Positions 20,417-22,733 of a stretch of 64,000 nucleotides of DNA are shown piece by piece; position 1 is the first letter of the stretch; every line of letters begins with the position of its first letter. Source of the DNA: Candidatus Rokuibacteriota bacterium (lineage in GTDB: Bacteria > Methylomirabilota > Methylomirabilia > Rokubacteriales > CSP1-6). The position numbers and the translations under genes were made by a program. The notes beneath the pieces were generated by a model. It was not told where the DNA came from. It ran no database searches and was given only the letters and a program-made list of their open reading frames with translations. The DNA is taken from positions 1 to 64,000 of the forward strand of contig JACPCW010000085.1 in NCBI GenBank assembly GCA_016184365.1, read 5' to 3'.

Positions 20417-21313
20417 GTGTCCGCGGGCCGCGCGTACCTGAGTCTCGTCCTCATCGTCGTCATCTGGGCGAGCTACCCGACGCTCGGCAAGGTGGCGCTC
20501 CGCGATCTGCCGCCGTTCCTGCTCGCGACGATCCGCTGCTCGCTCGCCTCGATCTTCCTCGTCACGCTCCTCGTGCGCTCGACGGCCACACCGCTCCACG
20601 GGCTCGGCTGGTCGGCGTTCGGCACGTTCCTCTTCCTCGGCGTCGCGGGCTACTGGCTGTCGACCCAGTTCAGCTACCTCGGCTACTACTTCACGACGGC
20701 GGCGAACGCCGTGATTCTTCAAGCCGCCACACCCGTATTGGTCGCCGTCGGTGCGCGCTTCTATCTCGGCGAGCGGCTCACGCGCTTACAGCAGCTCGGC
20801 GTCGCCGTGTCGGTGTTCGGCGTGCTGGTCGTCATCACGAACGGCCGGCTCGCGCTGCTGCGGTTCGAGGAGCTGCGCGCCGGCGACTTCATCACGCTCG
20901 GTGCCCTCACCGGCTGGGCCGCCTACACGGTGTACGGCAAACGGGCGATGCGCGACTACTCGCCGGAGCTCGCGACGACCGCGGCGTACGTGCTGGGCAC
21001 GCTGCTGATGTTCCCGACGGCCGCGGCGACGGCGGCGTACTTCCCCGCGCCGCGGCTCGCGTCGCCGGTCGCCTGGACGATCATCGTCTATCAGGCCGTC
21101 GTCGGCGCGCTCGCACACCTGTGGTGGTATCGCGCGGTGAACGTCGTCGGGCCGAGCATCTCGGCGATCTTCCTCAACCTGCAGCCCATCGTCGGCGTCG
21201 TGCTGGCGTGGCTGATCCTGGGCGAGACGATCGGACCGTGGCAGATCGCGGGCGGGATGTTCGTGATCGCGGGCGTGGTGCTGACGGGATCAGGCCCGCG
21301 TCCGCGGACCTGA
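20417..21313 (+). CDS. DMT/EamA family transporter
   Basis: ten hydrophobic segments; ...SAIFLNLQPIVGVVLAWLILGETIGPWQIAGGMFVIAGVVL. Confidence 0.85.
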   Translation: MSAGRAYLSLVLIVVIWASYPTLGKVALRDLPPFLLATIRCSLASIFLVTLLVRSTATPLHGLGWSAFGTFLFLGVAGYWLSTQFSYLGYYFTTAANAVILQAATPVLVAVGARFYLGERLTRLQQLGVAVSVFGVLVVITNGRLALLRFEELRAGDFITLGALTGWAAYTVYGKRAMRDYSPELATTAAYVLGTLLMFPTAAATAAYFPAPRLASPVAWTIIVYQAVVGALAHLWWYRAVNVVGPSISAIFLNLQPIVGVVLAWLILGETIGPWQIAGGMFVIAGVVLTGSGPRPRT

Positions 21314-21327
21314 TCCCGTCGCGCGGG

Positions 21328-21801
21328 CTACTTCAGCTTCTGTACTTCCGCGAGCATCTTGTCCGGGTCCGGGAGCTCTCCCTTCCCGTACTTCTCGGCA
21401 AACGCGATCTTGCCGTTCCTGTCGATCACGAACGTGGCGCGGCTGTTGATGTTCATCTCCGGCGAGTGGATGCCGTAGTCCTTGGCCACGCTGCGATGCA
21501 TGTCGGAGAGCAGCGGGTAGTTCTGGATGCCGACCGACTTCGCCCAGTTCTCGTGGCTGAAGGGGCTGTCCGTACTGATACCCAGCACCTGGGTACTGGC
21601 CGCCTCGAAGTCGCTCACGCGCTTGTCGAAGGCGGGCATGCACTTGCTTCAGCCCGGCGTCCAGTCGAGCGGATAGAACAGCAGCACGACGTTCTTGCCC
21701 TTGTAGTCGTGCAGGCTGACTTCCTTGAGCCCGACCGTCTTGAGCGTGAAGTCCGGCGCAGTGTCGCCGACCCTGAGCTCTTTCTGCGTCACGGTGCTCA
21801 C
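21328..21801 (-). CDS. peroxiredoxin (AhpC/TSA), probable selenoprotein with in-frame UGA at 21651-21649
   Basis: Reading through [105 protein letters not shown]...; UGA lies where the peroxidatic Cys of (D)WTP-x-C is expected; same frame both sides. Confidence 0.85.
21600..21635 (-). promoter_or_regulatory. bacterial SECIS-like hairpin downstream of UGA
   Basis: CCGCCU(U)CGA(CA)AGCGC-GUGA-GCG(A)CUUCGAGGCGG; begins 13 nt after UGA, apical GUGA loop 30 nt after UGA with G at loop position 1. Confidence 0.7.
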
Positions 21802-22733
21802 TGGGGAGTCCCCCCTTTCGCGGATTTTTTGGTCGAAACGCGCGTCATGGTACCACGCGGTACGACGGCCCTCGCCGGCGGCTTCCGCGTCGCGGCCCAG
21901 TCGCGATGCCGTCGCATCTCGAGCGGTGTCTCGTCGACGCCGAGGAACGTCGCGGCCGTCACGACGCGCTTCGTGTCCCAGAGTCGTGCGAACCGCACTT
22001 CATAGTCGGCGGCGCGCATCGCGTGGTGATCCATGATGACGCGGCAGCCCGTCCGGTCGATCAGTCGCAGCAGATGATCGATGCCGCGATCGATCGCCGC
22101 GGCGCCGACCTCGTGCTCCATGTACGACGGCGGACCGGACAGATAGAGGAGCGTCGGCCGCTCCTGGACGAGATACGCCGCGGCGACGGGCGACAGCGGG
22201 CCCTGCACGTCGGACGCGAAGACGAACTTTTCGCGCTCGGCCGGATCGACGATCGTCAGCGCGATGAGGTAGCCCAGCGGTCCGCCCTCGAGGCCGTGCG
22301 GCAGCGGCGGCGACATCCGCAGCTCGATGCCGTCGTCCTCCTTGTGCCGTCGGCTGTCCGCGCTCTCGAGCCGCGCGACCGGAGCGACCGCGCGCCACAG
22401 CGCGGCGGCGCGCTTGGCCTGCAGGCCGGCCACCATGCGGTTCGGGTCCTTGGCGATCACGCGCCGTCCCGAGTACGTCACGGGATCGGCGCGGAAATGA
22501 TCCTCGTGGTAGTGACTGACGAACACGATCTTCGCGCGGCGCGCGTAGGCGGAGATGCGGTCGTTCGCGCGCCGGAGCGCCTCCCACTCGGCGTCGGTCG
22601 GCGGCAGGTTGTAGCGCGACGGCGCGAGCGTCGCGCCCGGGTCGATGAGCATCGACACCGGGCCCGCCTCGACGTACGTCGCCATCGAGCGCACGCCGAG
22701 AGAGTCGGCGGCGAGGGGGATGATTTTCAGATG
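21798..22733 (-). CDS. MBL-fold metallohydrolase (start approximate)
   Basis: [48 protein letters not shown] overlap with peroxiredoxin start. Confidence 0.7.

Follow-up and report, generated by a model that had tools for sequence, protein, structure and literature searches.

A candidate two-arm SECIS element in a predicted selenocysteine peroxiredoxin gene of Rokubacteria

A gene on the minus strand of the 64,000-nucleotide stretch of DNA analysed here (the window) almost certainly encodes a selenocysteine (Sec)-containing peroxiredoxin, as predicted from its reading frame and its homologs. The protein is an additional member of an already known group. The novelty lies in the signal for Sec insertion: compared across related genes, the SECIS element seems likely, on balance, to consist of two consecutive hairpins, a spacer arm followed by the arm to which SelB would bind. 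As far as the open-licence literature searched goes, this two-arm SECIS is new; a bacterial SECIS that is distal or made up of two arms was not described there. The gene is also a case of a Sec peroxiredoxin that gained a candidate resolving cysteine at position +3 relative to Sec.

The frame (21328..21801, minus strand) starts with GTG at 21801, ends with TAG at 21330-21328 and comprises 157 residues, with codon 51 (21649..21651) as its sole TGA. A Shine-Dalgarno-like sequence, AAAGGGGGGA (21809..21818, minus strand), lies upstream of the GTG, and like purine runs precede most of the orthologs. A plain ORF call returned a 103-aa open frame from the internal ATG at 21639, the same start that the earlier note had criticized in the supplied ORF track. 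Its proposal that one AhpC/TSA gene is read through the TGA was borne out: the Pfam AhpC-TSA domain (PF00578) extends over the TGA, from residue 11 to residue 134 (E 2.4e-41; 141 bits, cut-off 26), and tblastn against the genome of origin recovered the peroxiredoxin gene with one TGA inside. The read-through protein matched many NCBIfam peroxiredoxin models, none of them above its cut-off. With 80.5 bits versus a cut-off of 270 for the PrxU equivalog NF040737, the protein is placed by its sequence in the PrxU superfamily, outside that equivalog. The AlphaFold2 model (with Cys put for Sec; pLDDT 94.2) resembled peroxiredoxins throughout, and the best two-way match was AhpE of Mycobacterium tuberculosis (1xvw/4x1u; TM-score 0.92/0.92, 37% identity), which has the same length. 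AhpE is a 1-Cys peroxiredoxin with Cys at the peroxidatic site, whereas the window protein has Sec plus a nearby cysteine, Cys54. In the model, helix 49-60 has residue 51 near its beginning and residue 54 one turn further along. The residues expected around a peroxidatic site were conserved in the 57 sequences compared: position 48 of the P-x3-T-x2-C/U motif (Thr48 in the window gene; 21658..21660, minus strand) is Thr in 53 and Ser in 4, Pro44 is present in 45, including the window gene, and Arg121 (21439..21441, minus strand), the invariant catalytic arginine of peroxiredoxins, is present in all 57. Because the frame is intact, the fold and the catalytic Pro, Thr and Arg are those of peroxiredoxins, the TGA is conserved and the Sec machinery is encoded in the genome, the gene is considered a selenoprotein peroxiredoxin.

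Folding the window gene by itself was uninformative (whole segment versus dinucleotide shuffles, z between −0.5 and −1.0 [−0.95], which is not unusual); therefore, a synonymous-codon null across relatives was used. The set was later widened with genomes of Acidobacteriota and of the Sulfobacillus type and freed of near-duplicates, which left 112 Sec and 96 Cys genes from several phyla. Before this widening, folding of the alignment had yielded two arms, arm 1 at +11..+49 and arm 2 at +52..+70 after the UGA. Arm 2 (21578..21596, minus strand), the proposed SelB-binding part, is an 8-bp hairpin with the sequence GUACCCAG-GUG-CUGGGUAU; in the window clade, the 43 Rokubacteria orthologs sharing Cys54, it takes the form AUACCCAG-GUG-CUGGGUAU, with the loop 59–60 nt past the UGA. 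When one pair is opened, the loop reads GGUGC at +59, which fits the bSECIS loop pattern. Two non-preferred codons complete this hairpin, AAT for Asn69 (41 of 41) and GGT for Gly74 (41 of 43); elsewhere in the clade, Asn is encoded by AAC and Gly mostly by GGC or GGG, rarely by GGT. In sliding folds against the synonymous-codon null, the region +48..+90 gave a mean z of −2.43 for the clade versus −0.88 for Cys homologs. Across the 112 Sec genes, the distal hairpin was seen 49 times versus 1.8 expected under a null that preserves codon usage, and outside Rokubacteria 29 times versus about 1.5 expected; only 2 of the 96 Cys genes contained the 59-nt hairpin. When loop letters were ignored, a distal stem was present in 54 Sec genes, 49 of which had the GGU loop, and the loops of Cys genes with a distal stem were mixed. 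A search of the element against Rfam gave no match at E 10.

Covariation within arm 2 was assessed in 58 Sec genes selected solely for the GGU loop and the four innermost pairs, so that the pairs under scrutiny were not used for selection; an earlier count on genes picked for pairing had been circular and was replaced by this one. The outer pairs were standard in 93% and 90% of the 58 genes. The third base of codon 74 tracks the first base of codon 70 (38 A-U and 14 G-C pairs versus 1 and 2 other combinations), and the third, synonymous base of codon 69 tracks the first base of codon 75. Contrasts on the tree provided 2–6 supported independent cases; for codons 70 and 74, 5–6 agreed and none disagreed (median p 0.06), which is consistent with covariation but not conclusive.

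The distal hairpin is one of two types found in these genes. Hairpins with a G[G/U] loop were in excess at two loop-centre positions only, namely at +20..+27 (40 seen versus 5.4 expected in the 112 Sec genes; 0 versus 0.3 in Cys genes) and at +60..+63 (54 versus 5.0 in Sec genes; 4 versus 1.9 in Cys genes). The former corresponds to the proximal, canonical hairpin, whose loop lies about 20–25 nt past the UGA (+21 and +23). Distal and proximal types are mutually exclusive: 48 Sec genes had the distal hairpin only, 42 the proximal one only, 1 had both and 21 had neither. At least 8 changes between the types were counted on the peroxiredoxin tree, and a distal clade of 13 rows (100% support) is nested among proximal-type Acidobacteria. 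Both types occur in the genome of origin, where paralog L012 is distal, and L010 and L013 are proximal. Bacterial selenoprotein genes probably have two SECIS architectures between which lineages switch, the known proximal hairpin and the two-arm element; if so, the 16–37-nt rule of search programs would miss one whole class. Some of the 21 Sec genes of neither type (including L170, L171, L125, L138, L158, L248 and L259) have a weakened distal stem.

Arm 1 (21599..21637, minus strand), the proposed spacer arm, has its minimum-energy fold in the window gene at +13..+48, with the loop GUGA at +30 (MFE −16.7). For 42 Sec orthologs, the fold of +12..+54 had a mean z of −2.25 against the synonymous null, 98% of them below −1.5, compared with 0.05 for Cys homologs. 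An arm spanning from +11–15 to +47–50 was found in 42 of the 49 distal-type genes (19.5 expected), in 2 of the 42 proximal-type genes (2.4 expected) and in 4 of the 96 Cys genes (9.8 expected). The hairpin around +60 as the only structure was rejected since arm 1 is also under selection. The mean unpaired path from the UGA to arm 2 was no different from the null, whereas the position of arm 1 did differ. An outer helix between the UGA region and +80..+85 was dropped; it is paired in 93% of the clade, in 67% elsewhere and in 66% of Cys genes.

According to the bSECIS model, the loop comprises 3–9 nt, contains a G in its first two positions and is located 16–37 nt after the UGA (PMC13188914, legend to Fig. 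2). Arm 2 resembles the canonical element in its N1-G-U-N-N2 loop and its stem of 7–8 bp within the coding region, and differs from it in that the loop is at +59 (in 49 Sec genes) and is preceded by a separately folded arm. Thus, the loop pattern is found in arm 2 outside the allowed distance, and the allowed distance is found in arm 1, the loop of which fits G[G/U] in 14 of the 49 distal-type genes, the window gene among them. For the window gene alone, both arms are formal SECIS candidates, and arm 1 on its own roughly fits the model; a plain bSECIS search, as the earlier note had recommended, would be ambiguous, the loop consistent with the family lying at +59 and thus outside 16–37 nt. In the mechanism proposed here, SelB with Sec-tRNA would be recruited by both arms together. 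Arm 1 would fold the spacer away; because it is folded, the GGU loop of arm 2 would come to lie at an effective path of ∼20–25 nt from the UGA, similar to the distance in proximal-type genes (+21 and +23). SelB would then bind arm 2, and the ribosome would tolerate, or even use, arm 1.

Alternatively, Sec could be inserted with arm 1 as the working SECIS, its loop at +30 being within 16–37 nt, and arm 2 could be an auxiliary or unrelated hairpin, for example, a pause site. The strong excess of structure in arm 1 of Sec genes, lacking in Cys genes, and the GUGA loop of the window gene at an allowed distance would agree with this. Nevertheless, it is considered unlikely: besides the low proportion of fitting loops in the distal type, several Acidobacteria have open arm-1 loops of 11–15 nt, and arm 2 is missing from precisely those genes that possess a canonical proximal hairpin. 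It is still less probable, to the point of being improbable, that arm 2 has no function as RNA and results from codon bias and the conserved peptide T/A-Q-V-L-G. This peptide does favour a short hairpin by itself (CAG-GTN-CTG is self-complementary), part of the distal pairing therefore comes free, and Cys genes pair the arm-2 columns in 72% of cells, some Cys homologs pairing well by chance. However, the synonymous null accounts for fewer than 2 of the 49 hairpins seen, non-preferred codons are frozen, and amino-acid changes on one side of the stem are accompanied by changes at synonymous sites on the other. Moreover, 8 Cys genes share this peptide motif, and of these, L033, probably a recent Sec-to-Cys change, is the only one with the distal hairpin.

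If the two-arm SECIS is real, gene finders that require a loop 16–37 nt past the UGA can overlook the element or assign it to the wrong place, which would partly explain the existence of bSECIS elements that do not conform to the model. It would also raise the question of whether SelB gauges the distance to the UGA along the sequence or along the folded RNA.

The TGA itself was found to be conserved. With a threshold of E 1e-15, 100 of the 119 genomes near that of the window contained a homolog, and nearly all Rokubacteria orthologs (57–81% identity) contained exactly one internal TGA. Within the window clade, codon 51 is TGA in 42 genes and TGC in the remaining one (L033), which substantiates the assignment of U51 in the earlier note to the peroxidatic site (T48-P-G-U51); its suggestion to look for Sec or Cys at this position of the nearest homologs led to the same result. 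The TGA is not due to chance because, among the homologs fetched, 86 have TGA at exactly that codon and 55 have TGC or TGT. Misreading of TGC or TGT as TGA, which the earlier note had named as a possible refutation, is practically excluded by the same TGA in independent metagenome-assembled genomes (MAGs). It is very improbable that the real gene is the 103-aa ORF beginning at Met 21639 and that the TGA is a true stop, a sequencing error or the mark of a pseudogene. The internal ATG and the open frame behind it would permit this, but TGA occupies this codon in dozens of MAGs of independent origin, the proteins being about 75% identical both before and after it; the 103-aa form would lack its active-site residue and the initial strands, and selA, selB, selC and selD are present, so that conservation and machinery together refute it. 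A genome-wide reassignment of UGA, for example, to Trp or Gly, would likewise open the frame, yet can be dismissed since several orthologs of the same gene terminate at a TGA stop, the UGA-reading tRNA is a long tRNA-Sec accompanied by its own selA and selB, and Cys rather than Trp or Gly occupies this position in homologs.

As the earlier note had observed, none of selA, selB, selC and selD is visible in the window, which has no tRNA gene; the Sec machinery it had advised to search for was found in full on other contigs of the genome. This genome is a Rokubacteria MAG of 5.58 Mb in 146 contigs (90% complete), the named close relatives of which are Candidatus Rokuibacteriota; the host is a soil or groundwater bacterium. 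The tRNA-Sec with a UCA anticodon (70 bits, cut-off 47) is on contig 55, where it is adjoined by selA (591 bits) and selB (368 bits). On contig 2, selD was found (349 bits), with an in-frame TGA of its own in SYASCAG-U-ASK. Further frames of a peroxiredoxin or thioredoxin fold, each with one in-frame TGA, are present at C6:29865-30248, C91:33321-33710, C131:3204-3611, C142:4466-4885, C76:3217-3546, C82:1565-1888 and C131:3737-4078, and the selenoproteome of this genome is probably large. That this lineage is rich in selenoproteins has already been reported, with 63 predicted in a Methylomirabilota MAG (cited in PMC13188914). A search for selA alone found it in most, though not in every one, of the genomes that carry the TGA gene; the exceptions, for example, the Rokubacteria genomes G032, G033, G041, G045 and G050, are draft MAGs, and incomplete assembly is the likely cause.

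The single Cys version in the window clade, L033 (G025:C1:2918-3370), is identical in sequence to L062 (contig JACQFL010000037). Its arm-2 hairpin is identical letter by letter, nearly all letters of arm 1 are kept, and its genome is still selA-positive; for these reasons, L033 is most simply explained as a recent change from Sec to Cys that left a relict SECIS behind. Relict SECIS elements are known from other families (PMC1794560). The peroxiredoxin family offers a natural series of proximal elements, distal elements and a Sec-to-Cys change with a relict element.

The second Cys pointed out in the earlier note as part of a UxxC motif is present (Cys54, TGC at 21640..21642, minus strand) and is conserved in all 43 genes of the window clade. 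The motif is not ancestral to PrxU: related Rokubacteriales genes read U-T-K-E, and, more generally, 14 related Sec genes without Cys54 have Glu, Gln or Ala in its place (UTKE, UTKQ, UTKA and UATE). The listed Sec peroxiredoxin genes of other phyla likewise are without Cys54. Because of this distribution, UxxC was probably gained late and within this lineage, on a 1-Sec ancestor of AhpE-like fold. In the catalytic cycle envisaged, the selenol of Sec51 would attack peroxides, the oxidized Sec51 would be resolved as a U-S bond by Cys54, one helical turn away, and a thioredoxin-type partner would then reduce this bond. Close Cys homologs, mostly of Nitrospira (L073-L118), have C-x5-C (CQGENKC), an alternative place for a possible resolving Cys.

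The window protein shares with known Sec-containing peroxiredoxins (PF00578, TxxU; PMC13188914, PMC1794560 and PMC1088965) the AhpC/TSA domain, the peroxidatic T-x-x-U, the common occurrence of Cys homologs and the Sec machinery; unlike them, its clade adds a Cys at U+3 (TxxUxxC). A UxxC active site on an AhpC/TSA-type fold is also a trait of the peroxiredoxin-like thiol:disulfide oxidoreductase selenoproteins (UxxC or UxxU; PMC13188914 and PMC1088965). These have been described as having UXXC in place of TXXU and as only distantly related to peroxiredoxins (PMC1088965), and the window gene, in which both motifs are present and T48 is kept, is set apart from them by this description. Because both motifs are present and the nearest relatives have no Cys at +3, the UxxC of the window clade looks convergent with that of the oxidoreductase selenoproteins, as compared by description.

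No relative of the gene was found on viral contigs, and all plasmid matches were less than 60% identical. Upstream of the gene, at 21798-22685 on the minus strand, lies a PRK04286-like metallo-hydrolase gene with an HYHEDH motif, the longer ORF being without a Pfam match; its stop overlaps the GTG start of the peroxiredoxin gene (GTGA). A homolog of it is situated beside the peroxiredoxin gene at 40 Rokubacteria loci, and a homolog of the convergent EamA gene (20417-21313) at 26, both counts including duplicates from two collections.
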